Assembly: GCA_008501735.1 (NCBI GenBank)
Contig: QQUF01000047.1
Span: 1-44,888 of the forward strand
Direction: 5' to 3'
From: Calditrichota bacterium
Lineage (GTDB): Bacteria > CLD3
Length of the DNA stretch: 44,888 nt
The first letter of the stretch is position 1; each line of letters starts with the position of its first letter. Made by a program: the position numbers and the translations under genes. The notes below the pieces were generated by a model, which searched no databases, was not told the DNA's origin, and saw only the letters and a program-made list of their open reading frames with translations. Shown piece after piece: positions 7,864 through 44,888 of the stretch.

Positions 7864-7905
7864 AAGCAAAATGTTCACTTTTTAGGTGGACATTTTGCTT
7901 TTACT
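7864..7905 (+). terminator. Intrinsic terminator after the surface-protein operon
   Basis: A 15-bp stem (AAGCAAAATGTTCAC / GTGGACATTTTGCTT, one G-T pair) with a 7-nt loop, followed by TTA. It separates surface cargo from the CBASS operon. It overlaps the upstream in-frame GTG at 7886, arguing that this GTG is not the CD-NTase start. Confidence 0.75.
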
Positions 7906-7939
7906 TGAACTTTTAAAGAACAAAACAGGAGAGTTAGTA

Positions 7940-8977
7940 ATGGCTTTACAAAATCAATTTATCAAATTTGAAGAAAAAATTAGATTAACTTGGAATGATT
8001 CCAAACTCAAAAAAATTCGTGAAAAAGACGAAAGTATCCGTTCAGATATTAGAACCTCTTTTAAAGAAGAAGGTTATTCTGTTAAAGAGTTTTTTCAACA
8101 AGGGTCATATGCGACTAAAACAACCATAGCACCTCTTGATGAGGATTATGATATTGATGTGGGGGTTGTGATTGATAGTGAAAATGCTCCAAAAGACCCA
8201 ACCGAACCCAAAAAGAAGATTAAGAAAGTTTTTGAAAATAGAAATCTCAAAGACCCTAAAATTAAAATACCTTGCGTAACAGCTCAATATTTTAAGAAAG
8301 GTGAAAAACATTTTCACTTAGACTATCCGGTCTATAAAAAAGTTAATGATGAGTATTTTCTTGCAATAGGAAAAGAACACTCACAAGAAGAACAAAAATT
8401 ATGGGAGAAGTCAGACCCTAAAGGCTTATTGGAATGGGTAAAATCACCAAAAAAGTTTAAATCACAAGAAGAACAAGCACAATATAAAAGACTTATCAAA
8501 TACTTGAAAAGATGGCGTGATTTTAGCTTTTCTGAAGGAGATAGAAAAAAGGTTTATTCAATAGGATTGACTGTGATGGTTGGGGAATCATTTTGTAAAA
8601 GTATCTCGTCTGATGGAGATATATCTGATATTAAAAGTTTAAAAAAGACAGTAAATACAATTCTGAGTGAATATTTTACATTTACCGGAAATGACTCTCA
8701 AGGTAATGCTCAATATGAAATTAAAGTAAATTTACCTAAAAGACCTTTTAATGATATTTTTGTTAAACATGGGAAAACAGTTGGCACAACTATTCAAAGA
8801 AAATTAGAACAATTAAAAAGAAATCTTGATTTAGTTATAGGTGAGCCAAATTTAAAGAAACAATGTGAAATTTTGTCAAACAATGTTTTCGGAGATGATT
8901 TTCCTATTCCTGAAGACGATAAAAAGATGAAGAAATTTAAAGAATCCGGTTATGTTTCTTCTCCACAAGGTGCTTAA
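7940..8977 (+). CDS. cdnA-like: CD-NTase (cGAS/DncV-like nucleotidyltransferase), type II CBASS
   Basis: 345 residues from ATG 7940, preceded by AGGAGAG; the upstream GTG 7886 lies in a terminator stem. The nucleotidyltransferase signature is intact: G55-S56, then D71 and D73 (EDYDIDVGV), then third Asp D128 (HLDYPVY). By family, it makes a cyclic oligonucleotide on phage sensing. It ends in GYVSSPQGA; a small C-terminal residue fits the known Cap2-mediated conjugation of the CD-NTase C-terminus. The stop overlaps the Cap2-like start (TAATG), so the two are translationally coupled. Clade and product cannot be settled by eye. Confidence 0.92.
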   Translation: MALQNQFIKFEEKIRLTWNDSKLKKIREKDESIRSDIRTSFKEEGYSVKEFFQQGSYATKTTIAPLDEDYDIDVGVVIDSENAPKDPTEPKKKIKKVFENRNLKDPKIKIPCVTAQYFKKGEKHFHLDYPVYKKVNDEYFLAIGKEHSQEEQKLWEKSDPKGLLEWVKSPKKFKSQEEQAQYKRLIKYLKRWRDFSFSEGDRKKVYSIGLTVMVGESFCKSISSDGDISDIKSLKKTVNTILSEYFTFTGNDSQGNAQYEIKVNLPKRPFNDIFVKHGKTVGTTIQRKLEQLKRNLDLVIGEPNLKKQCEILSNNVFGDDFPIPEDDKKMKKFKESGYVSSPQGA

Positions 8978-10683
8978 TGCTTGAAAAAATCAAAACGTTT
9001 TTAGAAAAAAACGGACATTCTGCTGAAATAATAGATTCAAGAATCATTACTACACATAAGTTCAATGAATTTGTTATTCGCATAGCAGGAAAATTTTTTT
9101 TAGAAGGTAAACTTTGGTTTTCTTTGCCTGAGCTGTATTTGCTTGAAAGAGGCAAGTATGGCTCTTTGGCACATGTCAGTTGGGATGAAAAAGATGAAGG
9201 GTTAATTTGTGGTGGAGTGTCTGAGAATAGACATATTGATTATGAGCAACTAGATGAAGTTTATCTACTGGCTTTAAATAAAGCTATTGAAACAATTAAA
9301 TCTCTTCTAATAGATAAAGATAAAAATGAGAAGGAAATATTAGAGGAATTTTCTGCTCATTGGAATTTTTCAGTAAGTAGCAAAACTAAGAATAAAGTCA
9401 TTAGTTTTTTGGAACCATCAAATGAAATTCTTGAATTAACCTCTTATGTTTCCAATGACGATAAGTTTAAAGATTCGGTTATTTTTTATAGAACTGATGA
9501 AAAAAATCTAAACCCAAACTACTCTTTCTTTAAAAGATTGAAAAGTAAAAATAGAGGAAATAGAGATAGAAGTTTGTATTTACCAATTGAACAACCTGTT
9601 TTACCACCAGCACCAAATGAATCAATTTTGCAATGGTGGTTTAGATTGGTTGAAAACCTTCCGACAACTATTCGAGAAGATTTAGAAAATCAAATTTTAA
9701 AAAAAACAAATAAAGTTTTTTGGATACTTTCTTCTGTTCATTTGGGACAAAATAAGCATAGTTGGTTTTGTCTCAAGTTTGAAAGAAAGAACAAATCTTA
9801 TCTACCTTTGAGCGTTAATTGTAAAACAGAAGGTTGGAATGCTTTTGCATATAATGTAATTATTCATAACAAAGAATATATAAAACCAAGAGGAGGAGCA
9901 GAAAAAGGATTAGATGATATAACAGTTGCAATTATTGGTTGTGGTTCTGTCGGAGGAGAGATTGCAAAGCAATTAGCAAGTGCAGGAATTGGAAAACTAA
10001 TGTTGATTGATCATGACTCTTTAAATGTTGAAAATATTTATCGTCATACTCTATCATCTCAATACATTGGTTATGATAAGGTAAAATCACTATCACATTT
10101 TCTAAAAACCAATTACCCATACTTAAAAGTAGAGTATTTATTTTCTTTCTTAAAGATATTCCTAGAAAAGGATTATTTAAATTCAGTTGACGGTGTCATC
10201 GTTGCAACTGGCAACCCTACAGAAGAACGATTTTTTAACAATGAGTTAATTAAAAGAGATAAACGCCCTTGGGTAGTATATACTTGGGTTGAAGGTCACG
10301 GTATTGGTGGACATGCAATTTATGTTCATCCAACGGGTGAAGGATGTTTGAGTTGTTTATATAGAGATATGTATGGAAATAAATCTCTCAACTCCATTCA
10401 AAACTTTTTAGACTCTGAGCAAGATATTGCAATAAATATTGCAGGGTGCGGAACTCATTTTTTACCATATTCTTTTATAGATGCTATTCAGTCAGCAACT
10501 TTAGCAACAAGGCTTACATTAGAAGCATTAAACAATCAACTAAGCAAAAGTAGCCGTATTTCTTGGAAAGGCGTAGTTCCTCCGGATTTTAAATTAAAAA
10601 CAACTTACAGATATAAAAATTTTAAAAAATCATTAGAAATTGAATCATTATTTTGGGAAGGTTGCGATGTCTGTAATTTTTAA
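8977..10683 (+). CDS. cap2: Cap2-like E2-E1 fusion, ubiquitin-transferase-like, type II CBASS
   Basis: 568 residues. The N-terminal part (about 1-110) is E2-like, with Cys78 in GLICGG as the candidate E2 cysteine. A linker region follows, then an E1/ThiF adenylation domain from about residue 315, with nucleotide motif AIIGCGSVGGEIAKQL and LIDHD. GCLSC (Cys457, Cys460) and the terminal CDVC form a likely structural zinc site. Cys491 in IAGCGTHF is a candidate E1 catalytic cysteine. In characterised type II CBASS, Cap2 activates and transfers the CD-NTase C-terminus to primers or targets, priming cyclic nucleotide synthesis. It sits directly between the CD-NTase and the JAB protease. Confidence 0.92.
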   Translation: MLEKIKTFLEKNGHSAEIIDSRIITTHKFNEFVIRIAGKFFLEGKLWFSLPELYLLERGKYGSLAHVSWDEKDEGLICGGVSENRHIDYEQLDEVYLLALNKAIETIKSLLIDKDKNEKEILEEFSAHWNFSVSSKTKNKVISFLEPSNEILELTSYVSNDDKFKDSVIFYRTDEKNLNPNYSFFKRLKSKNRGNRDRSLYLPIEQPVLPPAPNESILQWWFRLVENLPTTIREDLENQILKKTNKVFWILSSVHLGQNKHSWFCLKFERKNKSYLPLSVNCKTEGWNAFAYNVIIHNKEYIKPRGGAEKGLDDITVAIIGCGSVGGEIAKQLASAGIGKLMLIDHDSLNVENIYRHTLSSQYIGYDKVKSLSHFLKTNYPYLKVEYLFSFLKIFLEKDYLNSVDGVIVATGNPTEERFFNNELIKRDKRPWVVYTWVEGHGIGGHAIYVHPTGEGCLSCLYRDMYGNKSLNSIQNFLDSEQDIAINIAGCGTHFLPYSFIDAIQSATLATRLTLEALNNQLSKSSRISWKGVVPPDFKLKTTYRYKNFKKSLEIESLFWEGCDVCNF

Positions 10684-11161
10684 GAAAAGGAAGAAAATAA
10701 AAGCTATTCAACTAAAAGTTTCACCGAATGTTAAGCTAGTATTCGATAGAAATAAGCAAATAGGAGAAAACACCTTAGAAGCTTGTGGTATTTTGATTGG
10801 AAGACATTCTGAAGATGGAAAAGAAATTAGAGTCGAATTAGCAACACCTCCTTCCAAATTCGATGTTAGAAAGAGGTTTAGTTTTAAAATTCATTCTAAA
10901 CATCATCAGAAAATATTGAGTGATAAATTTATTACCTCTCAAAATGAGTTAGTCTTTCTTGGAACTTGGCATAGTCACCCAGAACCAAAGCCAACACCTT
11001 CTGAGTGTGATATAAAAGATTGGAAAAAGCAATTTAAAAAGAACAAACATTTATTCGATTATATGATTTTTGCTATTGTTGGTCAAAAGCAAATAAGATA
11101 TTGGTTGGTCAAAAATGGTAATTATTCAAGGATAAAGAAAAAGTGTGTTTGTTATGAATAA
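10667..11161 (+). CDS. cap3: Cap3-like JAB/JAMM isopeptidase, type II CBASS
   Basis: 164 residues starting at ATG 10667, inside the end of the Cap2-like gene (17-nt overlap), with GGGAAGG upstream. The in-frame TTG at 10640 is less likely. It has a complete JAMM metalloprotease signature: Glu in TLEACGILIG, then GTWHSHP, then eight residues to SECD. Cap3 proteins remove the Cap2-made conjugates and restrain signalling. The overlap with both neighbours supports one transcript and coupled translation. Confidence 0.92.
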   Translation: MSVIFKKRKKIKAIQLKVSPNVKLVFDRNKQIGENTLEACGILIGRHSEDGKEIRVELATPPSKFDVRKRFSFKIHSKHHQKILSDKFITSQNELVFLGTWHSHPEPKPTPSECDIKDWKKQFKKNKHLFDYMIFAIVGQKQIRYWLVKNGNYSRIKKKCVCYE

Positions 11162-12221: not shown

Positions 12222-12436
12222 ACACCCTGTGTTTTAAAACGACCGTTTAAAAACAAAAGAAAGTGTAACGACAATGCCTTTTTAATAAGTGTTTTTAAGG
12301 TATCTTTTTCATACCCCTTAAACAACATACCGAAATAATTATTTACACTCCTAGTAAATTTGGGCTTTAGATCTTGGTTGAGTAGAACCAATGCATTTAT
12401 TTCTACTCTTTTGACCATTTCATATTTAAAGCCCAT
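12218..12436 (-). CDS. Possible small gene at the end of the type III CBASS operon
   Basis: A 72-residue frame from ATG 12436 with TTGGAG 11 nt upstream. It overlaps the end of the NUDIX effector by 34 nt and, on the other strand, the last codon of the SAVED effector. It is basic and hydrophobic (KTLIKKALSLHFLLFLNGR) with no recognised domain. It could be a real minor gene or chance coding in the space between convergent operons. Confidence 0.3.
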   Translation of the reverse strand: MGFKYEMVKRVEINALVLLNQDLKPKFTRSVNNYFGMLFKGYEKDTLKTLIKKALSLHFLLFLNGRFKTQGV

Positions 12437-13239
12437 TTCGTATGTTCTCCAATATGATATAACTTTTTCCTTTGTCTATTATCATGACCCAAGTTCTTAA
12501 TCAATTCATCATCAGCCCATTTGTAATTATCAGTGTCACCTTTTTTTAATAACGTTTCTAATTCTCGCTCTTGTTCTCTTGTAGGAATTAAATCTAAAAT
12601 ATCATATTGAAGGATTTCAAAACAATTCCATCCTTGAGTCGTTTTTATCGGAGTTGTTACAGTTCCCACATAATTATAAATTACGTATGGAAAATTTTTA
12701 GAGCCTAAAATCTTTGATTGTCCACCTACTAGCTCCTCATAAAATTCTCGCCAATGAGAAACCTCTCTATCTTTTTTAGTATTGAACCAATCAATAAATT
12801 TTATGGCATTCTTAGCAGGAATAAAAATTGCGAAATCATCTTTAGTTAACCCTGAATTTGGCAATTTTAAATCGTCCATTGCATCAAATTTTTCCTTTAA
12901 CATACTTTGTGTACCTGGGAGCCTTTTATATTTTCCTCCAACAAGTTGGAAATGACCAAAATTTGAATTTTTAACTAATAAATACTTATCATTAACCTTT
13001 ATTCGATATAAATACGACATTGAAAAGCGAATATTTTCATCCTTTAATGCCAAATACTTACAATGAAAAAGTAGTATAATTCTTTTCCGATTTTCAACAC
13101 CTTCAAAAATTAGAAAATATATTGTACTAATACCTAAAATAATTCCTGCTCCCATTAGTTCATTTTTCAATCCAGGATCTAGAAAATGACCAACTAGGAT
13201 TAAAAGTATTCCTAAACCAAATTGAATTAAATACTTCAT
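12403..13239 (-). CDS. cap16: TM-NUDIX effector (Cap16-like), type III CBASS
   Basis: 278 residues. Two hydrophobic segments at the N-terminus (about 4-20 and 29-45) are followed by a SMODS-associated NUDIX-like domain. Recognisable parts are YLYRIKVNDKYLLVKNSN, the GHFQLVGGKYK strand-loop, and REFYEELVGG, a reduced Nudix box of the REFxEEL type. By family, the NUDIX-like domain is thought to sense the cyclic nucleotide and the membrane segments to act as the killer module. Its start overlaps the AAA+ stop by 4 nt. The degenerate Nudix box suggests sensing rather than hydrolysis, but this is inference. Confidence 0.85.
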   Translation of the reverse strand: MKYLIQFGLGILLILVGHFLDPGLKNELMGAGIILGISTIYFLIFEGVENRKRIILLFHCKYLALKDENIRFSMSYLYRIKVNDKYLLVKNSNFGHFQLVGGKYKRLPGTQSMLKEKFDAMDDLKLPNSGLTKDDFAIFIPAKNAIKFIDWFNTKKDREVSHWREFYEELVGGQSKILGSKNFPYVIYNYVGTVTTPIKTTQGWNCFEILQYDILDLIPTREQERELETLLKKGDTDNYKWADDELIKNLGHDNRQRKKLYHIGEHTKWALNMKWSKE

Positions 13240-14120
13240 TTAATTTTTGGACTTGGTTTTATGGAAGAAATAGTTTCTACAAGAATTTCATAAGTTAAAG
13301 ATTTATCTGGAAAAGCCTTTGCTACCGCTTCTGGTAGGATTTTAAGCCTTATATCAGAAAATGAATGCCCTAAATTCGAATTTTTCTCTGGGCTTGTTAA
13401 ATCAGCTAAATTATCAAGTTGTTCCTCAGAAAATTCAATTCCTTTAAGGCTTTGTGAGAAAAGCTCTTTTCGCTCTTTTTTATTCGGTCTTTCAAACTCT
13501 AAAACAATAGAAGCTCTTCTTATTATTGCTTCGTCAATAAAATGTAGCCTATTTGTTGACATAAAAACGACAGCACGTCCATGTAATTCTCTAATCTCAT
13601 CAATTTTCTGAATTAATGTATTTACAGAGGCTTTTTCTTCTTGGTGCATTTGCATTGTTGAACGAGTTGTTGCAATTGCATCTGCTTCATCAATAAATAA
13701 AAAGGCAATCCTTCTTTTACCTGCCTGTATTTTTAATTCGGCAAAGGCATCATTGACAAGATTTCCCATTTGTCCATGCAACCCTTCTCCTCTTACTCTT
13801 GTACTCAATTTTAAAAAGAAACCTTCTTTTTTGAGTTCTCTTGTCATTTTATCTGCAATTGACTCAGCAGAAACAGTTTTACCTGTTCCTGCATCACCAG
13901 CAAGAATAATTAAAGGGTATTTATCTTTTAACTGATTAATTATTGGGAGTTTAGTTTGATGAAACTTCTTACTCCACTCATTCAGACCATCTTGATCAAG
14001 TAGTAATTTTAAGTTTGTATAAATACGACTAAACTTACTTTCAAAACCAATTAAACTTTTTGTTCTTTCTTGAATTTCAGAATTTGGTAATTCTAAAGTA
14101 TTGTCAAATATTGTTGCCAT
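13236..14120 (-). CDS. cap6: TRIP13/Pch2-like AAA+ ATPase (Cap6), type III CBASS
   Basis: 294 residues with Walker A GDAGTGKT (75-82), Walker B FLFIDEAD (140-147), sensor MSTNR and an arginine-finger-like IRRAS. This is the single-ring AAA+ layout of bacterial Trip13 proteins. In type III CBASS it remodels the HORMA protein to its open state and so switches off the CD-NTase. It overlaps the genes on both sides (the HORMA stop by one base, the effector start by four), so all are translated from one message. Confidence 0.92.
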   Translation of the reverse strand: MATIFDNTLELPNSEIQERTKSLIGFESKFSRIYTNLKLLLDQDGLNEWSKKFHQTKLPIINQLKDKYPLIILAGDAGTGKTVSAESIADKMTRELKKEGFFLKLSTRVRGEGLHGQMGNLVNDAFAELKIQAGKRRIAFLFIDEADAIATTRSTMQMHQEEKASVNTLIQKIDEIRELHGRAVVFMSTNRLHFIDEAIIRRASIVLEFERPNKKERKELFSQSLKGIEFSEEQLDNLADLTSPEKNSNLGHSFSDIRLKILPEAVAKAFPDKSLTYEILVETISSIKPSPKIK

Positions 14121-14635
14121 TAGTTGTAACCCACTTTTTGTAATTCGTATCCATTACTAGCATACAATTGTTTATTATTTCTTTGTAGATGTGGAAATGT
14201 GTTATCAATCGAAGTCTTTACCCAACCAATTTTAAATCCATTCTCATTCTGAAATTTCTGCTTTTCGGTATGTGATAAACCATACCATTCTTGCGAATAT
14301 GAAAGAATCACCCTTAGATGAGTATTTGGAATATCTTCCCAATCATTATTTTTCCCTGGTCTATCACTTGCAGATGACGTTCCATTTGAATTAACTTTAA
14401 ATTTAGAAGCTTTGATTACTTCATTACTGGCATCATCAATTAAAGCAATGTCAACTGATTCTAAATATTCATTTTCAGCTAATTCAATTATATCATGAAA
14501 TATATCATCTACATATTTCATAGTCCATTTATCAGTTATGCGTGCAATCATTCTAACATCCGCTTCAAAATTTTCAAATGTTTTTCTAATATCAATAACT
14601 GTATAAGTTTTTGTTTGCGTATTTGTATTGTACAT
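14120..14635 (-). CDS. cap7: Bacterial HORMA protein (Cap7), type III CBASS
   Basis: 171 residues, starting 2 nt after the CD-NTase stop. The helix-rich N-terminus (TFENFEADVRMIARITDKWT) and the later SYSQEWYGLSHTEKQ and basic, aromatic C-terminus fit a bacterial HORMA domain. Sequence signatures of this fold are weak, so the call rests heavily on position between a CD-NTase and a TRIP13-like ATPase. By family it senses a phage peptide, closes its safety belt and activates the CD-NTase. Only one HORMA gene is present. Confidence 0.82.
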   Translation of the reverse strand: MYNTNTQTKTYTVIDIRKTFENFEADVRMIARITDKWTMKYVDDIFHDIIELAENEYLESVDIALIDDASNEVIKASKFKVNSNGTSSASDRPGKNNDWEDIPNTHLRVILSYSQEWYGLSHTEKQKFQNENGFKIGWVKTSIDNTFPHLQRNNKQLYASNGYELQKVGYN

Positions 14636-14637
14636 TT

Positions 14638-15615
14638 TTATTTAACTCCAAAAGTTGGTCCAAATACTCTTTTCCACTCTTCTATTGTATCACCTTCATT
14701 GTTCCTTGCTTGGGCAAAATTCAACGAATCAAAAGCATCTTCTGCCTCTTCAATTACTTCCTTCCACTTAGCCAAATTTAGCTTTTTAGCCACATTGTTC
14801 TCATTATTCGTATTGTCAGCAATAAAAATCGGTGTATCAAATTCAGGAACTTTATTTATAGCATTTTTAAACGAAATTACTGGAAAATTAGGTTTACTTA
14901 AGAATTGAAAGAATCTAATCACAGCCTCTTCGATATTATCTTCTACACCACATTCAATGTCTAAATAAGCAACTATCAGCTCTATTGAGAAAGAAGACAG
15001 TCCAGATTCGTTTTTAGTCTGATTAATTTCTTTGTAATTCTTCCACCATTTTAGCATTCTGACAATAGATGTATATGAAGAGTTACTTTTTCTTAGTCCT
15101 AAAGCAAAGTCTAATTGTCTTGAAACACTTGTAATGTATTTTCCACCTCCACCTCTTTCTGGTTGCCAGACATAATCCCCAAGTTTATTTATTGGAACAA
15201 CAGGAACAATATCAACCTCTAACCCTGTTCCCGAAAATTTTATTTTTATTGATTTATTGCCTTCCTTATCAACATCTTTTTTAATGTCCTTTTGCGGATA
15301 AATCTCCTCTAAATATTCTACAATAAAATCATGTACTTTTTTAAGATCGTTTTGAACATCCTCATCTCCTTCAATAAATAAGACCAAATCTATATCTATT
15401 GGATTATCTCCAGTAGGTCTTAAGATGGTATGTTTTTTCCAAGAGCCAGCCAATAAATATTTTGTTACTTTCAGCCCTGTTCTATCATCATCTTTAATTT
15501 TATTTTCTAATCTTTGCTTGAGATTAGAAATTTGGTCTCTGTACACCTGCATATTATCAGGTCTTAACTTGATTTTTTTTACAAAAAATTGTAATTGGGA
15601 ATTATCTAACTTCAT
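14638..15615 (-). CDS. cdnC-like: CD-NTase, type III CBASS
   Basis: 325 residues with an intact nucleotidyltransferase core: G57-S58 (LAGSWKKHT), D74 and D76 (NPIDIDLVLF), third Asp D135 (GLEVDIVPVV). An alpha-helical C-terminal OAS-like half follows (VRMLKWWKNY, SGLSSFSIELIVAYL). It is first in the operon; TTATAGAGGAACTT precedes its ATG. It is distinct in sequence from the CD-NTase at 7940, so the plasmid carries two unrelated cyclases rather than a recent duplication. The product cannot be read from sequence. Confidence 0.92.
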   Translation of the reverse strand: MKLDNSQLQFFVKKIKLRPDNMQVYRDQISNLKQRLENKIKDDDRTGLKVTKYLLAGSWKKHTILRPTGDNPIDIDLVLFIEGDEDVQNDLKKVHDFIVEYLEEIYPQKDIKKDVDKEGNKSIKIKFSGTGLEVDIVPVVPINKLGDYVWQPERGGGGKYITSVSRQLDFALGLRKSNSSYTSIVRMLKWWKNYKEINQTKNESGLSSFSIELIVAYLDIECGVEDNIEEAVIRFFQFLSKPNFPVISFKNAINKVPEFDTPIFIADNTNNENNVAKKLNLAKWKEVIEEAEDAFDSLNFAQARNNEGDTIEEWKRVFGPTFGVK

Positions 15616-20667: not shown

Positions 20668-20880
20668 TTAATTTTGATTCACTTCATTTGTAGATTTTAA
20701 GAACTGTTCCCTCTTTTCAATCGTATCATCTTCAAAAGAGTGTCCTAATTGATTAAAATATTTTTTTAGACATCTTTCATGGACAAGATCGAAATCTAAT
20801 TCTTTTGACTCCAATGAAGGAAGGAAGGTAAATTTATACCCTCTCTTCCCACAAAGAGAACATAGTTTTTCATCTCTCAT
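20668..20880 (-). CDS. Small CxxC protein, minus-strand copy of the duplicated module
   Basis: 70 residues from ATG 20880, chosen over the longer frame from 20934 because AAAGG lies 7 nt upstream and the length then matches the 69-residue paralogue at the window junction. It has CSLCGKRGYKFTFLPSLE, then HERCLKKYF and DDTIEKREQFL. It is the third gene of the module. Function is unknown; a metal site is likely from the CxxC and HxxC spacing. Confidence 0.78.
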   Translation of the reverse strand: MRDEKLCSLCGKRGYKFTFLPSLESKELDFDLVHERCLKKYFNQLGHSFEDDTIEKREQFLKSTNEVNQN

Positions 20881-20944: not shown

Positions 20945-21565
20945 TTACTCTTCACTTTCAAACCAAGTAATTATGTAAAAACCTTGGTTTTCAGGAGAAT
21001 CAAACTTTACACTTCCAACACTATCAGCTTCTACACGAAAGCCTTTAATGTCAAGACATTCAGTTGTTGTATCAGAAATTGAAATCCATTCATCATCAAT
21101 GTTAAGCACCTGAGCATTCGTCACACTCAACACTGAAATTGTATCTTCAATACTCCAACTAACTTCTAAGTTTTCTTCAATTGTTACATCTCCATCACAT
21201 TCAATTTCAACAGATTCACCATCAATATCAAATGTTCCAGATTTCTCAAAAGAAACACCACCTTTAAGCCCTTTGCAACTGTAAGTTCCAGAACCATTTG
21301 GAATGGATTCCCAAACATCATCTGAGTTTAGTTTTTGAGCATTACTTGCATTTGTTACACTAATACTTTCAAGGCTTGACCAAGTCGCTTCACCACCTGA
21401 AAGAGTAATACTTCTTTCACAGTTTAACTGTGCACTGGAATGAAAAATCTGATTAGGTATTTCTGAAGAGTTTAGGATTTCTTCATTTGAACAACTATTC
21501 AGAGAGAAGATTAAAATCACTCCTAAAATCCCTGAAGCAAATTTTGGAAAACTTTTAGAAAACAT
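20945..21565 (-). CDS. Lipoprotein with two related beta domains, minus-strand module copy
   Basis: 206 residues. A lipoprotein signal (MFSKSFPKFASGILGVILIF, then SLNSCSNEE with lipobox Cys) anchors it to a membrane. The mature part holds two related beta segments: ITLSGGEATWSSLESISVTN... with NAQKLNSDDVWESIPN, and NLEVSWSIEDTISVLSVTN with NAQVLNIDDEWISISD. It is a close paralogue of the protein at 44064-44690 (the tract GSGTYSCKGLKG is identical). Its ATG directly abuts an 11-bp hairpin that contains part of the Shine-Dalgarno sequence. Function is unknown. Confidence 0.8.
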   Translation of the reverse strand: MFSKSFPKFASGILGVILIFSLNSCSNEEILNSSEIPNQIFHSSAQLNCERSITLSGGEATWSSLESISVTNASNAQKLNSDDVWESIPNGSGTYSCKGLKGGVSFEKSGTFDIDGESVEIECDGDVTIEENLEVSWSIEDTISVLSVTNAQVLNIDDEWISISDTTTECLDIKGFRVEADSVGSVKFDSPENQGFYIITWFESEE

Positions 21566-21607
21566 TTTGCACTGTCCTTAGGCGTTTAGTTAAACTGACA
21601 GTGCAAA
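21566..21607 (-). promoter_or_regulatory. Start-codon hairpin of the lipoprotein gene (minus copy)
   Basis: On the minus strand, TTTGCACTGTC, a 20-nt loop, then GACAGTGCAAA ends right at the ATG of 21565. The ribosome site AAGGA straddles the loop and right arm. The paralogous gene at 44064 has the same design, with two compensatory base-pair changes. Confidence 0.65.
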
Positions 21608-21837
21608 TTTGACTTGAAATGTGTATTTTTTGGGTTAGGCGGAGTCTTTTTTGTTAACCTTAGTTAAGAGATAATCACTCCTTTAATACTCTCTAATCAC
21701 ATATTTAAATTAAATTTTATGAAAAATGAGGCACTATTGCCAATTAGATGTAATTAGTATTCTTTAATACAAATATCTCTAGGTTGGATTTGAAAGTAAA
21801 AATAACACTTTTGGTATTTTGTTAGTTTTTTCGGTAT

Positions 21838-23376
21838 TTATTTTTCTAAAAGTTCGAGGATTTTTTCCCATAAAATCTCATAATTTATGATTTCCCAATT
21901 ATAGAAACTGTTTGAAGTTGTCGTTCTATACTCTTTAAGTTTTTTGAGATAGCTTTGGCTTTTTACCTTAATTTTTGGAACATCAAAGTCATTTTGGTAA
22001 GCAATATTTAACATTTTTATAAAACAATCCATTCGGTAATAATCATTCTTAACTAAATACCTAAATGTGTATTGTTTTAAGTTTTTTATTTTATTTGTTA
22101 ATTCATCTTCCATTGATTTACCACTTTTACTACTTCCATCAATAAGATTAAATAAAAGTTTAACAAAATGAATGGCTACATTTAGTCCTTTTTTATCGAG
22201 TTTTAAAAACTTTAGTTTATCAATTTCTGTTTCAACTTTAAATTTTTCTCTGAGTTTATTTCCTTCATTAACTAGCTTTTTATTCTTATCTGTCAGCAAT
22301 GAAAAAATTAAATAACACTTGAATAGGATGAAGATTTCCTTTTCAAACTGAAGAGCATTAAATCTCTTATGGGTTTCTATTTTATTAAGAATTTTTAATG
22401 ATTGCTCAAGTTGACCTGTCTGAAGAGCTAAAAGAAAATAATGATTTAGATAAAACAGATAATTTACAGAACGTTTATCTAAAATTGTTGCTATCTGCTC
22501 AGCAAGAAAATTTCCATTTTTATAATCTTGTAAATAAACAAAGCAAAGTAATTTATTGAGAGAAAAACTAGAAATAAGAAATGGAGAAATAATATTCTTA
22601 TGCTTCAAAAAGTAATTCTCAGCTTGTGTATACACATTAACAGCTCCTTTAAAATCACCTCCTACTTCATAAACCGATGACTTTAATTTAAAAAGGTTCT
22701 TCTGAAGTGTTAAAGAGTCATACTTTTTAAAAGTTTTCATAAGTTGAGTTATTTCTTGAACATACTCATTTGCTTCTTCAACTAAATAAGGTTTTATGGT
22801 TTTGGAGTTTACAAATTTGATATTGATTCTATACGCATATTCCATTGATAAAAGCTCTGCGGAATAAACTTTCTTAAAAAAAGAAATTTCTTCGTGCGTA
22901 GTTTGCATTGATTTTTCATCTCCTTTGAGAAGATAATAATCTGCAAGAAAACGAAGAGAGCTTAAAACAATATCAGTCATTTTATATTCTTTAGCTATCT
23001 CAATATTATTTTTGAGAATATCATATCCAATTTCGTAGCAACCGTTTTTCATAAACATCTTAGAAAGGAATAAATCTTTTTCACAATTATATGTAGCCTT
23101 TAATCTATCAGAAGATTCAAAACTAATATCAAGCATTAAAACAGTATCTAACATTTGTTCTTTTACTTTGCTTTTAAGAACTCGAAACCTTGTTTTAGGT
23201 GGGTTTTCATCAAAAATATCAACAGAAGCTTGTCTATCTGTCTGATACCTATCCTCCATAATTCCCTTGAATAGTTTTAGAGATTTGGATTCATTTGAAC
23301 TTGTATCAAAAAAGGTTTTTAATCCCTTAAAATTCTTCTTTTTTAATAACCTTGCAATATCTTTTAATTCGTCCAC
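21838..23376 (-). CDS. Alpha-solenoid (TPR-like) protein, minus-strand module copy
   Basis: 512 residues, GTG start in the context GAGGAAATAAAAGTGGAC, which is shared with its paralogue at 42282. It is almost entirely helical with degenerate TPR-like repeats (for example FKGAVNVYTQAENYFLKHKN, LEQSLKILNKIETHKRF). The N-terminus (IARLLKKKNFKGLKTFFD) and LKSKVKEQMLDTV resemble the roughly 500-residue helical proteins common in Bacteroidota, which have no assigned function. It is upstream of the lipoprotein and CxxC genes on the same strand, though 272 nt separate it from the lipoprotein. It may be a cytoplasmic scaffold or regulator. Confidence 0.75.
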   Translation of the reverse strand: MDELKDIARLLKKKNFKGLKTFFDTSSNESKSLKLFKGIMEDRYQTDRQASVDIFDENPPKTRFRVLKSKVKEQMLDTVLMLDISFESSDRLKATYNCEKDLFLSKMFMKNGCYEIGYDILKNNIEIAKEYKMTDIVLSSLRFLADYYLLKGDEKSMQTTHEEISFFKKVYSAELLSMEYAYRINIKFVNSKTIKPYLVEEANEYVQEITQLMKTFKKYDSLTLQKNLFKLKSSVYEVGGDFKGAVNVYTQAENYFLKHKNIISPFLISSFSLNKLLCFVYLQDYKNGNFLAEQIATILDKRSVNYLFYLNHYFLLALQTGQLEQSLKILNKIETHKRFNALQFEKEIFILFKCYLIFSLLTDKNKKLVNEGNKLREKFKVETEIDKLKFLKLDKKGLNVAIHFVKLLFNLIDGSSKSGKSMEDELTNKIKNLKQYTFRYLVKNDYYRMDCFIKMLNIAYQNDFDVPKIKVKSQSYLKKLKEYRTTTSNSFYNWEIINYEILWEKILELLEK

Positions 23377-24450: not shown

Positions 24451-25404
24451 TTAAATTCTGTTTTTCTTTACTAAATTCCAATAATGTTCTCCTAAGATAG
24501 TGAGTTTACATGACTTTGAATTCATAGCAGCATGCCACATGTGTGGAGCATCTATAGGAATAACGAGGTTTATTCTATTGTATTTTTGTAATAAGGCAAA
24601 TTTTGCTGTATTCTCTTTATTTGGGTTATCACTTTCAGGTTCAAAGGAAGGATCTAATTGGAATTCTTCTCCTTTTGAATTAAATAATGTGGTAATCTTT
24701 CTTAAATCTTCTAAATGAATTGGTGCTTGTACTTTTCTTAAAGTTGTAAAATTGGTCACATTAGTTTTAAAAACAGGTCTTTGTTCCCATAATCCTAAGG
24801 ATTGGTCAATATGAGCATAAATACTACCTGGAGTTATATCCCCAACTAAATTTGAAGCACTTCCATTCATAGCATCAACAAAAAGTGAGGTAAAAACACC
24901 TGAACCTTCTTCCTCAAGAGCATATTGATTTTCACTTGAAGCAGTTAATATTGTAATACCTTCTGCCAACATTGATTTATCTTCTTTTGGAGATGTTTTC
25001 CCCATAACCCCTGAGTGACAACTATCCAAAATTATTAATTTATTTCTAGATGGCGAATCATTAACAATATGAAGAAGTTCATTCATTGATAATCCATCAT
25101 CTCCATCCTTACAATCAGATGTCAATAAATAGCCTCCTGTGCTTTCGATGTACCCATGACCCGAAAAATAAAAAAGGGCAATATCTAATTTGTCTTTAAA
25201 AAGTTCAATAATTTCATTTTTTAACTCTTTTTTAGAAATTGCATTATCAGATCCTGTCGCAGTCTCTAATTTGACATCAAAATTTTTTGTGCCATCACTA
25301 TTTCTTTCTAAAACAGATTTAACCGAATATGCATCATTTACACAACCAAATAAATTTTTAATTTCTTCGTAGTAATCAATTCCTACAACTAATGCTTTTC
25401 TCAT
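24451..25404 (-). CDS. Caspase-like protease (peptidase C14), effector of a type IV Thoeris-like system
   Basis: 317 residues from ATG 25404; AAGGAG lies upstream within the end of the TIR gene. The caspase-like fold is clear: ALVVGIDYY, then catalytic His83 in FYFSGHGY and Cys129 in IILDSCHSG. A separate C-terminal region (about 225-317, ending HMWHAAMNSKSCKLTILGEHYW) could be the ligand-sensing part. In the recently described type IV Thoeris, a TIR enzyme makes a cyclic ADP-ribose isomer that turns on such a protease, which then degrades cell proteins. Here two TIR-like genes lie directly upstream on the same strand, which supports that role. Confidence 0.85.
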   Translation of the reverse strand: MRKALVVGIDYYEEIKNLFGCVNDAYSVKSVLERNSDGTKNFDVKLETATGSDNAISKKELKNEIIELFKDKLDIALFYFSGHGYIESTGGYLLTSDCKDGDDGLSMNELLHIVNDSPSRNKLIILDSCHSGVMGKTSPKEDKSMLAEGITILTASSENQYALEEEGSGVFTSLFVDAMNGSASNLVGDITPGSIYAHIDQSLGLWEQRPVFKTNVTNFTTLRKVQAPIHLEDLRKITTLFNSKGEEFQLDPSFEPESDNPNKENTAKFALLQKYNRINLVIPIDAPHMWHAAMNSKSCKLTILGEHYWNLVKKNRI

Positions 25405-25406
25405 AA

Positions 25407-25808
25407 TCAACAAAGCTCCTTAATTGCATCTACTATTTTGTTACCCTGCCATTTTACAACATCATCAGCATTATCTTTGACTAGCCTTGAAGTTCTTTCA
25501 GATCCCCAAGGTTCAACAGCAATAATTGGTTTATCATAATCTAATGCTATTTCAATTTCAGCTTCAATCCATCTACTATATGTTGCATATACACCTGCAA
25601 GAACGATAACTCCACTAGTACCTCTAATTTTAGATTCAATTGCATCATAAAGTTCTGAGTCTGTTCCTTCAGTATGAATTGGATCATCTTTAGGAACAGA
25701 ATGATCGTAATAGGATAAACCTTGTTCTTCAAAGAAACGAATTATCGTATCATAAGTATTTATGTAAGCCCAAGAATGACTAATAAATAATCTGTAAGTT
25801 TTTGACAT
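25407..25808 (-). CDS. thsB-like: TIR-like protein (MTH538/ThsB type), soluble
   Basis: 133 residues, essentially one TIR-like domain. It starts RLFISHSWAY and has GVIVLAGVYATYSRW followed by IEAEIEIAL, placing Glu84 at the usual catalytic Glu position. IIAVEPWG completes the fold. By family such proteins detect phage and make a nucleotide signal from NAD+. It lies 8 nt after the other TIR-like gene, and the caspase-like start follows 2 nt after its stop, so the three form one operon. Confidence 0.85.
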   Translation of the reverse strand: MSKTYRLFISHSWAYINTYDTIIRFFEEQGLSYYDHSVPKDDPIHTEGTDSELYDAIESKIRGTSGVIVLAGVYATYSRWIEAEIEIALDYDKPIIAVEPWGSERTSRLVKDNADDVVKWQGNKIVDAIKELC

Positions 25809-25816
25809 AAATCCAC

Positions 25817-26302
25817 CTAATTTAAAGTATTTAAAAATTCTGAAATATTATTCCAAGTCCAACGAATGACTTTTTTGTTTTTTAATTCTTTTGGTTTTGC
25901 CCCCTTGTCATTCCACTGTATTTGCATACCAATAGTTGGTATCTTTTCCTCTAATGCACATTTCATTTCCCAACGTGCCCCACCTGCTTCGTGAGTTTTT
26001 TTACTTATTAGTGCTATAACACCATCACATTTTTTTATTTTTGTTCTACATCTTTTTTTCCACTCATCTTGTTTCCAAGGTTTTTTAGCAGACATATCAA
26101 TAAAGTCGAAAGGTGAATTTTCTTTCCTAGCTTGGTCCATTAATCTGTCTCTAAAAAACTCATCCTCAATGGCAAAACTTATAAAAATTCTTTTTCTTGT
26201 ATCTTTAGGCTTTTTCTCACCAAAAATATAATGTAAAGCACCAAAAGCTAATAATCCCTTGGCAACAAATGATATTACTTTGCCTAGATTTAGATTACTC
26301 AT
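25817..26302 (-). CDS. thsB-like: Second TIR-like protein with N-terminal hydrophobic segment
   Basis: 161 residues. An N-terminal hydrophobic stretch (about 8-27; VISFVAKGLLAFGALHYIFG) could anchor it to the membrane. The TIR-like domain follows: RIFISFAIEDEFFRD, IKKCDGVIALISKKT, GGARWEMKCALEEK, with Glu112 as the candidate catalytic Glu. It differs clearly from the neighbouring TIR, so the pair may sense different triggers, as proposed for Thoeris loci with several ThsB genes. It is first in the operon. Confidence 0.85.
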   Translation of the reverse strand: MSNLNLGKVISFVAKGLLAFGALHYIFGEKKPKDTRKRIFISFAIEDEFFRDRLMDQARKENSPFDFIDMSAKKPWKQDEWKKRCRTKIKKCDGVIALISKKTHEAGGARWEMKCALEEKIPTIGMQIQWNDKGAKPKELKNKKVIRWTWNNISEFLNTLN

Positions 26303-37169: not shown

Positions 37170-37613
37170 TTAATTTTGTCATTAAATTCAAAATTTGTTT
37201 CTAAGATTTTATCATAAAAAAATAAAAATATCTTTTTTCTTTTCATAAGCAAAGATTCAAATTATTTGCTCCTTTTAAATCCATCGAAATCCGAATGGAT
37301 TTTGTAAATTTTTTTGAAAAAAAAGACAACATCACATAGGCAAATTTTATTTTTTTTGATGATTTTTCAAAAGTGGTGATAGTTGTTGTTATAGGTTGTA
37401 AATATATAGGTTGTACACCATTTTAAAAACAAGAGATAAATGTTATAATTAAAGGGTTTAGAAGGAGCATAAAAAATAAAAACGGGGGCGAATGTCCGAT
37501 ATTAAACTAAAAAACGGGGGCGAATGTCCGATATTAAACTAAAAAACGGGGGCGAATGTCCGATATTAAACTAAAAAACGGGGGCGAATGTCCGATATTA
37601 AATTTAGAACATT
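37170..37613. other. Candidate replication origin: AT-rich segment plus iterons
   Basis: No gene is seen. 37170-37477 is extremely AT-rich and includes the direct repeat TATAGGTTGTA at 37390-37400 and 37405-37415. The iterons at 37478-37602 follow, then the rep gene end. An AT-rich unwinding element next to initiator-binding repeats is the usual plasmid origin layout. Confidence 0.65.
37478..37602. repeat. Four iterons, 32-bp period
   Basis: Units start at 37478, 37510, 37542 and 37574. The 29-base core runs AAAAACGGGGGCGAATGTCC plus GATATTAAA and is identical in all four; the first three add CTA. The GC-rich CGGGGGCGAATGTCCG block stands out against the AT-rich surroundings. These are likely Rep-binding sites controlling copy number. 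Confidence 0.9.
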
Positions 37614-39086
37614 TTACTGAGAAAATTTCTCTTTAAAAACCCTTGAAAAAGTGAAGTAAAAAGTTCTTCTTTCTTCGAGAAATTCTTTGATTTCTTGAGG
37701 CTCTAATTTGAGTTTTTCATACTTTTTAGTTTGGTGTTCTTTTTTAGCAATTTCAAGAAGTTCTAATTTAATATCATCTGATAATTTATCAAATTCTTTG
37801 AAGAATTCTTCTCGTTGTTGAAGTTCTACTTCCTCCGATTTTTTGCTCTCTAATTCTTCTTGTTGTCTCTTTGTTTGTTCACGCTTTCGATTCTCTTCTA
37901 TTTGTCTTTTTTCTTCTATTTGTCTTTGATAAGATTCTGGGATTTCATCGTTACAAATTAGATTCCAAAGATAAGCTCCGTCATTTTCAATTTTCTTCAT
38001 TTTACCTTCTGCACCTAACTCTTTAATCAAATCGAAAATTTTAATTCTTTCTGAAACATAGTCTTCAATAGAAAGTTTTGTAAAATCATATTTTTCGATA
38101 ACAAAGTCTGCAAGAGCTTTTTCTTTGTTTTTGATAAGATTGTTTACACACCTTTGACTAACATTTTTATCTAATAAAATTTTGAAAATATCTGGAATGC
38201 TTGTGACAGTTTTTTCTTTTGGGAGTTGTAAAGGCTTTTTCTTCGCTTTGTAAAACCATATTTGATATTTACCTGTTTTGATTTTTCTATAATCATATCT
38301 TTCCAAGAAGCCTCTTCTAACAAGTTCTTCACTTGCCTTAGTGACAGTTTTTTTTATTTCTTTTGTTGCTTGATTTTGAGTTAAACCAAGAAAATTTTCT
38401 GCTAATTCTCGCAGGTCAAAAAAGAATGATGGTTGGTTATAAAATCTTTTGTCTAAAATTCGATAGAGCTTTTTTGCTATGTGAAATGTAAGACTAAAGT
38501 AAAATTCACTATCGAGGTTTTTAATGTATTGATCTTGAAGTGATTCAAAATAACTATCTGTGAACATAATGAAACTTTTGAATAAAGGTGCTTGTTCAGC
38601 TTTTCTTCCTTTTTCGTTATAGATTTGATATTCTTGAACTATTCCGACTCCTCTTGAAAGAAGTTGCTTTTGTTGATTATGCCAAAATGAGTTCTTATAC
38701 TCAATGCTTACAGCTTTTAAAATTTGCAAATCTTTTTCTAGCCTTTTGTAATATCTCTGACTTTTACCATAGTTCATTCGGTTTAAGAGCTCTGCACGAT
38801 TGAAATACACGGTTTTTGATTTGAAATTACTTTGTTCTTTACACAATTCGATTATCGCCAGAAGAGTATCTTCAGTTGAAGGTATTGGTAAACCTAATTT
38901 GATGTGTCCTTCAATTGTCCATTCTTTTTGGATAGTATTTCCATTTGGATCTTTTTCTTCTCTCGAAAAGGTTGCAAATTTTTTATCGTTATCGGGTCTA
39001 ATTGAGGCAAAAGGAAATTCGACGAGATTCATATCGTCTTTTCCTTGCCTTTTTGGTTGTTCTGTAGATTTTTGGTTTTTATTCAT
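37614..39086 (-). CDS. rep: Plasmid replication initiator (RepA-like)
   Basis: 490 residues. The N-terminus has NLVEFPFASIR, then GLPIPSTEDTLLAIIELCKE, NRAELLNRMNYGKSQRYYKRLEKDL and FYFSLTFHIAKKLYRILDKR. This matches the replication initiator A winged-helix layout (WH1 and WH2). A long Glu/Gln/Arg-rich coiled coil (about 395-450) ends the protein. It binds the iterons, which here lie just 12 bases beyond its stop codon rather than upstream. Inverted-repeat sequences upstream (39163-39210) may autoregulate it. Confidence 0.87.
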   Translation of the reverse strand: MNKNQKSTEQPKRQGKDDMNLVEFPFASIRPDNDKKFATFSREEKDPNGNTIQKEWTIEGHIKLGLPIPSTEDTLLAIIELCKEQSNFKSKTVYFNRAELLNRMNYGKSQRYYKRLEKDLQILKAVSIEYKNSFWHNQQKQLLSRGVGIVQEYQIYNEKGRKAEQAPLFKSFIMFTDSYFESLQDQYIKNLDSEFYFSLTFHIAKKLYRILDKRFYNQPSFFFDLRELAENFLGLTQNQATKEIKKTVTKASEELVRRGFLERYDYRKIKTGKYQIWFYKAKKKPLQLPKEKTVTSIPDIFKILLDKNVSQRCVNNLIKNKEKALADFVIEKYDFTKLSIEDYVSERIKIFDLIKELGAEGKMKKIENDGAYLWNLICNDEIPESYQRQIEEKRQIEENRKREQTKRQQEELESKKSEEVELQQREEFFKEFDKLSDDIKLELLEIAKKEHQTKKYEKLKLEPQEIKEFLEERRTFYFTFSRVFKEKFSQ

Positions 39087-39162
39087 AATTAGTTCCGTTA
39101 TTGTTTGTGTGTTTTTTTTGCAATAACGGATATTTAATATTTAGTTGTATAGTGGTTTTTCC

Positions 39163-39210
39163 AATACAATTCTAATAGCTTCTTGTATAGAATACTATTA
39201 GAATTATATT
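39163..39210. promoter_or_regulatory. 16-base inverted repeat upstream of rep
   Basis: AATACAATTCTAATAG (39163-39178) and CTATTAGAATTATATT (39195-39210) pair with one mismatch around 16 nt. It abuts the end of the ParA-partner gene and lies about 77 nt before the rep start. It could be an operator, a partition site or a processed hairpin. Confidence 0.55.
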
Positions 39211-39506
39211 TAACTTCTTTCGCCTGCAATTCTAATAATTTCAGATTCTATTTTTTCATTTCCCTTATCTAATTCGTTTTCTAAGAAAGCTAATGCAATT
39301 CTTGTTATATGTGAATCATTGGTCTTTTTTCGAGTTAGTAACCTTATCTTCTGTTTCATTTTTTTCACTCTATCAACATCGCTTTGATAAACATAGAAGC
39401 TCTTAGTTTTCATTGAGTCTTCGATAGGTAAAGCGGAATGAGAAAGTATTTCTTCTTCATTCCTTTCTTCGATAAAAGAAAATCCTGTTTTATTTTTTGT
39501 AGCCAT
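39210..39506 (-). CDS. Small DNA-binding partner of ParA (ParB/CopG-like)
   Basis: 98 residues, 17 nt after the parA stop. The N-terminus is polar; the C-terminal half (TKSFYVYQSDVDRVKKMKQ, ITRIALAFLENEL) has the strand-helix-helix look of ribbon-helix-helix proteins. Such small genes after parA encode the centromere-binding protein. Candidate target repeats lie at 39163-39210 and 40411-40440. Confidence 0.72.
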   Translation of the reverse strand: MATKNKTGFSFIEERNEEEILSHSALPIEDSMKTKSFYVYQSDVDRVKKMKQKIRLLTRKKTNDSHITRIALAFLENELDKGNEKIESEIIRIAGERS

Positions 39507-39523
39507 TTTAAATACCTTTAATT

Positions 39524-40318
39524 TTACTTCCAGTTAGTTAAGACAAAATTACCAAATTCCTCATAAACTAACCTTGCTTTAGAATTTTTATAAGTTGGGT
39601 CTTCCATCAAATTAACAAAATTAGCCTGTGCATTTCTAATATTTTGGTCAATTGGAACTCGACCTTCAAAAACTTTTCCTGCTTCTTCTAACTCTCGTGA
39701 ATATTGCTCTAACTCAGCTTGGATTTTTGTAGCTCTTGGATTAAACATCGTGTAAAGAATAAGATAATTTTCAAAACCCTTCCCTTTTATATCCCAAATT
39801 AGCGGAATTGCCAAAGACAAGCCGTCAATACTGTATAAATCAAAGATACTTGGTAACACAATATAATCTGCAATCTCTATCGAATTTTCGACATAAACAC
39901 TAAGGTCGGCAGGACAATCAATGATTAAATAATCGAAATCTTTTTTAATTGGTTTTATAATATTTCTTAAAACCTTAGACCGTTCTCTTGAATGAAGCGA
40001 AATATTATCCTTAAATTGCTCCATTTTTAGAGTTGATGGCAAAATGAAAATATTTTCACTATTTGATTTTCTAATAGCTTCTTTAACAATATTCTTTTTC
40101 CCATCAATCACATACTTATAAAAAACATCATACATTGTTACACCTTTGGCTTTTAATCCCATTTGTAGGTCTAAAAAGTTTTTTGTGATGTTTCCTTGTG
40201 GGTCAATGTCCAAAATTAGAACTTTTTTCCCTTGTAGAGCAAGGTAAGAAGAAAGATTTATTGCAGTCGTTGTTTTTGCAACTCCGCCTTTTGCGTTTGT
40301 AATGGCAATTGTAATCAT
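39524..40318 (-). CDS. parA: ParA partition ATPase
   Basis: 264 residues with deviant Walker A KGGVAKTT (residues 10-17), LILDIDPQGN and DYLIIDCPADLS, the full ParA/Soj signature. It has no N-terminal DNA-binding extension, so it is the short (type Ib-like) form, which pairs with a small RHH-type partner, as found 17 nt downstream. It segregates plasmid copies over the nucleoid. Confidence 0.95.
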   Translation of the reverse strand: MITIAITNAKGGVAKTTTAINLSSYLALQGKKVLILDIDPQGNITKNFLDLQMGLKAKGVTMYDVFYKYVIDGKKNIVKEAIRKSNSENIFILPSTLKMEQFKDNISLHSRERSKVLRNIIKPIKKDFDYLIIDCPADLSVYVENSIEIADYIVLPSIFDLYSIDGLSLAIPLIWDIKGKGFENYLILYTMFNPRATKIQAELEQYSRELEEAGKVFEGRVPIDQNIRNAQANFVNLMEDPTYKNSKARLVYEEFGNFVLTNWK

Positions 40319-43823: not shown

Positions 43824-44024
43824 AAATCCAACTTTGTCATTTTTTGTCACAAATCTTTATTCTGTAGCTTCATAGAGACATTCTATAAATTAGAGAATAA
43901 TATTTTTTAGTGCTTTTAAATAAATTAGGCTTTATTTAAAGCTCTTTAAAGGAAGGTTTCTTAGAATAGTTATGGGATAAAATCGCCCAACTGTTACAAA
44001 GGAAAAAAGACATTCTATCTAATT

Positions 44025-44064
44025 TTGTGCTGTCAATTAATTAAACTCCGAAAGGACAGCACAA
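44025..44064 (+). promoter_or_regulatory. Start-codon hairpin of the lipoprotein gene (plus copy)
   Basis: TTGTGCTGTC, a 20-nt loop ending in AAAG, then GACAGCACAA, whose last A is the first base of the ATG. The AAAGGA ribosome site straddles the loop and right arm, as in the other copy (21566-21607). Confidence 0.65.
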
Positions 44065-44754: not shown

Positions 44755-44888
44755 ATGAGTAATAACTCAAAGAAATGTTCACTTTGTGGGAAGAGAGGTT
44801 ATAAAATGACCTTTCTTCCTTCATTGGAGACAGAAGAATTAACTTTTGAATTTGCACACGAAAAGTGTCATAGGCAATATTTTAAAAT
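44755..44888 (+). CDS. Small CxxC (zinc-ribbon-like) protein, 5' part of the junction-crossing gene
   Basis: ATG at 44755 follows an AAAGGGAACA-type ribosome site. The frame runs off the window end and continues at base 3 of the window, because 44762-44888 equals 1-127. The encoded start MSNNSKKCSLCGKRGYK matches the paralogue at 20880, which starts MRDEKLCSLCGKRGYK. It is the third gene of the plus-strand copy of the duplicated module (alpha-solenoid, lipoprotein, CxxC protein). Confidence 0.8.
   Translation, partial: MSNNSKKCSLCGKRGYKMTFLPSLETEELTFEFAHEKCHRQYFK
44762..44888. repeat. Terminal direct repeat, right copy (circular assembly overlap)
   Basis: Identical to bases 1-127. Removing one copy gives a circle of 44,761 bp. 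Confidence 0.95.

Follow-up and report, generated by a model that had tools for sequence, protein, structure and literature searches.

Start-codon hairpins in a duplicated three-gene lipoprotein module and their possible role as read-through silencers

Inverted repeats at the lipoprotein start codons

Two paralogous lipoprotein genes in the window (the whole 44,888-nucleotide stretch of DNA that was analysed) begin at inverted repeats that could fold into hairpins in the mRNA, and the question raised by this locus is what such a stem might do at the start of these genes. An earlier note had reported the hairpins at both starts, and both repeats were confirmed almost exactly (Table 1). In the minus copy, located on the minus strand of 21562-21607, the arms form 11 bp around a 20-nt loop and the second arm is directly followed by the ATG (21565-21563). 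The plus copy forms 10 bp, also around a 20-nt loop, and the last base of its 3′ arm is the A of the ATG at 44064. This ATG, and not the TTG at 44025, was taken as the start of the plus gene on the basis of the Shine-Dalgarno (SD) sequence and the paralogue alignment. The SD sequence had also been described as buried by the hairpin, which is true of one part of it: AAGGA is split, with GA lying in the stem but AAG in the loop.

These stems were compared with those of 666 genes with starts from approximately 830 kb of the same genome. A perfect stem that overlaps the start, is no shorter than 7 bp, and has four or more G/C in its arm was found in only three leaders, all of lipoprotein genes, and the longest perfect stem over a start among the 666 genes belongs to the minus copy. 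At random positions, stems of at least 11 bp were found in 12 of 6000 cases, many of which are probably terminators. Folding of the bare minus and plus hairpins gave -14.2 and -14.0 kcal/mol, respectively (z of about -4), and the z-scores of the minimum free energy of the bare hairpins were -4.05, -4.5, and -3.0. At another locus of the genome (L073), a 10-bp start-proximal stem (CTTTACCAA.../...TTGGTAAAG) precedes the gene at position 14683 of that locus, and its sequence is unrelated to the lipoprotein hairpins.

At both loci of the window, a gene for a TPR-like protein, the lipoprotein gene, and a gene for a small CxxC protein are arranged in this order and in one direction. The minus and plus copies share 75% identity between the lipoproteins and 55% between the TPR-like proteins, and the TPR-like proteins are 44-45% identical to those encoded on contig C48. 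In total, five TPR-like and four lipoprotein copies were identified in the genome, the latter comprising two in the window, one on contig C11, and one on C48, where the locus contains two TPR-like genes. The lipoprotein gene on C11 (L014, G000:C11; 199-868) is split into two frames, and the leader before it has exactly the sequence of the plus leader. The module proteins matched no known family in Pfam above the cut-off, in NCBIfam, or in PDB by sequence, and no match to the TPR-like protein was found in PADLOC. Structure modelling predicted a helical solenoid for the TPR-like protein, the structural matches of which were no more than generic, and the model of the lipoprotein was unusable (mean pLDDT, 48). 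No homologues of the lipoprotein or the TPR-like protein were found in plasmids, in viral contigs, or in eight other genomes of the phylum, and none of the TPR-like protein in genome contigs. The single weak match among the eight genomes (E = 0.036) was to an unrelated protein.

Table 1. Coordinates of the two copies of the module and of the hairpins and promoter-like boxes at the lipoprotein starts
Feature	Position	Strand	Basis
Upstream module gene, 512-aa predicted all-helical solenoid protein (TPR-like), co-directional with the lipoprotein gene	21838-23376	-	structure model
Degenerate -7-like box CAAATTTG, overlaps the minus 5′ arm; first T of TAnnTTTG is C	21604-21611	-	motif
Inverted repeat/hairpin at the minus lipoprotein gene start	21566-21607	-	sequence, folding, genome comparison
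5′ arm, TTTGCACTGTC	21597-21607	-	
Loop, AGTTTAACTAAACGCCTAAG	21577-21596	-	
3′ arm, GACAGTGCAAA	21566-21576	-	
Lipoprotein gene, minus copy, 206 aa, lipobox-like LNSC	20945-21565	-	ORF and paralogue comparison
Third module gene, small CxxC protein, about 65 aa, ATG at 20880, end approximate	20683-20880	-	sequence, related copies
Upstream module gene, plus copy, TPR-like, 513 aa	42282-43823	+	paralogue comparison
TAATTTTG, perfect match to the Bacteroidota -7 box TAnnTTTG, overlaps the 5′ arm; predicted transcription start site (TSS) 44032	44020-44027	+	motif
Inverted repeat/hairpin at the plus lipoprotein gene start	44025-44064	+	sequence, folding, genome comparison
5′ arm, TTGTGCTGTC	44025-44034	+	
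Loop, AATTAATTAAACTCCGAAAG	44035-44054	+	
3′ arm, GACAGCACAA	44055-44064	+	
Lipoprotein gene, plus copy, 208 aa	44064-44690	+	ORF and paralogue comparison
Third module gene, small CxxC protein, plus copy, runs past the window end	44756-44888	+	sequence

Leader copies and pairing between the arms

The repeat at the lipoprotein ATG is kept in all four leader copies of the genome. Homologous leaders lacking the pairing had been named in advance as a finding that would count against the hairpin, and the pairing recurs even in C48, the most distant copy (TTTGTGCTGTC, 16-nt loop, GACAGAACAAATG), in which one pair is broken and 10 of the 11 are left. A loop of constant length, which had been noted for the two window copies, is thus a feature of these two but not of chromosomal C48. 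The two stem positions reported to differ between the minus and plus copies together with their partner bases (C-G to T-A and A-T to G-C) are present in the sequences, at neighbouring positions. When identical rows were merged, three distinct leader sequences remained, in which 8 of the 11 stem pairs are invariant and two have both bases changed, one of these two being also broken in C48; the remaining pair deviates by no more than an unpaired cell. The covariation score was higher in the true register than in every slid version, and 52 of 500 shuffles reached the same score. With three distinct sequences, two adjacent double changes, one broken pair, and this proportion of equal shuffles, to describe the pattern as direct evidence of selection on pairing goes too far, because a single template-switch event could yield it, as could a shift or a change of specificity in a dimeric DNA site. 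Template switching in replication has been proposed to make multibase compensatory changes in one event (PMC8794818).

In the second case, the dyad would be a DNA operator, in which a dimeric regulator, perhaps encoded nearby, binds to two TTTGYRCTGTC half-sites between the -7 box (see the next section) and the start codon, and the change at YR would track the changed partner. The half-site sequence is strongly conserved and overlaps the promoter box, the change is symmetric, and the TPR-like proteins diverge together with the site types (the identities of 55% between minus and plus and 44-45% to C48), all of which is consistent with an operator. However, the arm centres are spaced by 31, 31, and 27 bp (27 bp in C48), i.e. 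nearly half a turn off and not at a fixed distance, one C48 half-site is altered, and no DNA-binding domain was recognized in the TPR-like protein by sequence and structure comparison. Seven other TTTGYRCTGTC matches exist in the genome, and all of the five that were examined lie in coding sequence. The 31/27-bp spacing and the lack of other sites before genes (among the five of seven matches examined) weaken the operator explanation, which we regard as quite unlikely, although a dedicated local operator would need no further sites. As for a wider regulon, CTGTC-N-GACAG pairs occur elsewhere at control level and do not have the matching outer arms.

A promoter-like motif in the 5′ arm and access to the start region

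The earlier note, in which the leader was taken to be part of the working mRNA, did not consider an overlap with a promoter. In three of the four copies (plus, C11, and C48), the 5′ arm overlaps TAATTTTG, which perfectly matches TAnnTTTG, the -7 box of Bacteroidota sigma-A promoters (PMC9723704), and RNA from such a promoter would lack the hairpin. The distance from the box end to the ATG is 33-37 nt. Because this consensus is that of Bacteroidota and may not be that of the host, the lineage of which we read as FCB-like from the type 9 secretion-like tails on its proteins, the motif was tested in the genome itself. Sense TAnnTTTG was found 82 times before genes versus 51.7 expected (z = 3.9), with the maximum density at 15-45 nt before the ATG, whereas the reversed and complement controls were at background and TATAAT was depleted. 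Classical sigma-70 sites were at shuffle level only, and an EM search of this genome for a two-box promoter did not converge on a useful model. As the enrichment is only approximately 1.6-fold, any single TAnnTTTG match is far from certain. A TTTG at -33 has also been described in B. fragilis (PMC7366714), and no -33 TTG was found at the usual spacing in any of the four copies. The minus copy, with its degenerate box, would have a promoter that is weak or located elsewhere.

In F. psychrophilum, the -7 box occupies positions -12 to -5 relative to the TSS, and the median 5′UTR is 24 nt (PMC9723704). With this spacing, the TSS is predicted to be 29-34 nt before the ATG (32 nt in the plus copy), at the G of GTC inside the 5′ arm, so that 8 of the 11 arm bases would be lost and only GUC left. 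The 5′ arm and the TAAT outside the stem are identical in plus, C11, and C48, and they stayed so while the 3′ arm of C48 broke a pair, suggesting that the 5′ arm has a function beyond pairing.

It is conceivable that the two arms together regulate nothing, the 5′ arm being kept as a promoter and the 3′ arm as a ribosome-binding site (RBS). Their complementarity would then be an ancestral feature that was either inherited passively or renewed when replication switched templates within the palindrome. Each arm would have its own reason to be conserved, the double changes are adjacent, as expected of one template-switch event (PMC8794818), C48 is down one pair, and the plus and C11 copies share their leader by recent descent. 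Nevertheless, the complementarity is the most striking among the 666 genes and 10 of the 11 pairs are still present in the most distant copy, and we consider this explanation improbable.

The energy needed to open positions -15 to +3 was computed for a long RNA started upstream and for RNA from the predicted TSS. In the long RNA, the cost was 12.6-13.8 kcal/mol for the minus copy, 13.0-13.1 for the plus copy, 12.1-12.3 for C11, and 9.6-10.1 for C48. When the RNA began at the predicted TSS, the respective costs were 3.6, 4.3, 5.7, and 3.0 kcal/mol. Across the genome, the median was 4.9 and the 99th percentile 12.9 kcal/mol. By folding, the hairpin would thus lift the opening cost of the start region to about the top 1-4% of genes, and an mRNA started upstream is predicted to hide the start region, whereas one from the own promoter would leave it open. 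SD-like motifs precede 31% of the genes in this genome (control, 6%), and masking of one could therefore matter; the 16S gene, from which the anti-SD sequence would be read, is missing from the assembly. A search of both loci of the window revealed no terminator-like site between the TPR-like gene and the lipoprotein gene.

A stem that covers the start might also act as the translational switch proposed in the earlier note. It would then belong to the leader of the working mRNA, transcription of which would begin at a more distant upstream promoter, and a signal such as temperature, a protein (possibly the lipoprotein or the TPR-like protein), or a small RNA would open it. Stable stems, a half-buried SD sequence, the high opening energies, and pairing that survives two double changes agree with a switch, and the minus copy has the longest stem yet the poorest -7 box. 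However, in three copies, RNA transcribed from the TAATTTTG box of the 5′ arm would have its first base within that arm. Loop sequences differ and loop length is either 20 or 16 nt, which leaves no evident protein or ligand site, and the eight invariant pairs represent more sequence conservation than pairing alone requires. The Rfam search returned no match in the window at the gathering score, and at the minus locus even a threshold relaxed to E = 1 gave no match. Positive evidence for a thermosensor or a ligand or protein switch was therefore not obtained, and we regard a switch of this type as unlikely.

Our preferred, though tentative, reading is that the start-region hairpin is a read-through silencer, as in phage T4 gene e. 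The start region of the lipoprotein gene in the duplicated module would have a dual use, the 5′ arm containing the -7 promoter box and the predicted transcription start and the 3′ arm containing the second half of the SD sequence and extending to the start codon. An mRNA arriving from upstream, by read-through from the TPR-like gene (which is assumed here) or, once the module has been relocated, from a foreign promoter, would carry both arms, fold into the hairpin, and be blocked in translation. In an mRNA from the own promoter, most of the 5′ arm would be missing and the start would be open. The hairpin would thus probably silence only the messages that run in from the upstream gene, and synthesis of the lipoprotein would depend on its own promoter.

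In T4 gene e (and also soc, 49, and I-TevI), a start-site hairpin is present in the longer upstream transcripts, with a measured effect of about 100-fold; the DNA that specifies the 5′ strand of this hairpin also contains the late promoters of gene e, and the promoter-proximal mRNA, which does not have the hairpin, is translated (PMC3014915). The lipoprotein leaders are similar in that the start region would be sequestered in long transcripts, as the predicted pairing across the SD sequence and start codon and the opening energies indicate. A promoter may also lie in the DNA that specifies their 5′ strand, where three of the four copies have a perfect -7 box and the minus copy a degenerate one, with no -33 box. 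The leaders differ in that the T4 effect was measured and is timed by a phage late promoter, whereas promoter, transcripts, and effect are predicted for this bacterial lipoprotein module. Leaders of insertion-sequence transposase genes, such as that of ISPpu9, also bury the RBS of a multicopy gene in a stem (PMC8450116), but ISPpu9 has a long 5′UTR and antisense RNA control, in contrast to the short promoter-overlapping stem of the present module, which encodes no transposase. SD-masking RNA thermometers likewise have a stem over the SD sequence and start codon; unlike them, the present stem is perfect and fairly G/C rich, does not contain the usual short anti-SD pairing, and matches no Rfam family.

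A further and more doubtful step would be to view the module as a mobile, multicopy element with its own translational insulator, in which the promoter is complementary to the RBS and translation occurs only from the own promoter wherever the module lands. If so, a phage-like trick would have become a permanent feature of an accessory cassette in a bacterium. By this compact means, a mobile or duplicated gene could disregard transcription from its neighbours, in a setting other than phages and insertion sequences and in what we read as a little-studied FCB-like lineage. A start-codon hairpin, even one with paired changes, need not riboregulate the main transcript if its 5′ arm doubles as a promoter.

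Other features of the window

The contig looks like a mobilizable plasmid because of four 32-bp direct repeats (iteron-like; 37469-37596), the adjoining genes for an RPA-type replication initiator and a ParA-like protein (37614-40318), and NikA/MobC and ArdC-like genes near the repeats. The window ends are identical over 127 nt (1-127 and 44762-44888), and the same sequence forms the end of contig C11. This identity looks like an assembly overlap inside the repeated module, and circularity of the contig is therefore not proven.

Several putative defence genes were also found. A type II CBASS-like operon (7886-11161, plus strand) encodes a cyclase and E1-E2 and JAB proteins, for which the matches in PADLOC were strong, and a second, type III-like CBASS set (12403-15615, minus strand), which directly faces the first, encodes a 2TM effector, TRIP13, HORMA, and a cyclase (PADLOC). 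At 24451-26302 (minus strand), a gene for a caspase-like protein lies beside two for TIR/ThsB-like proteins and may represent a further defence unit.
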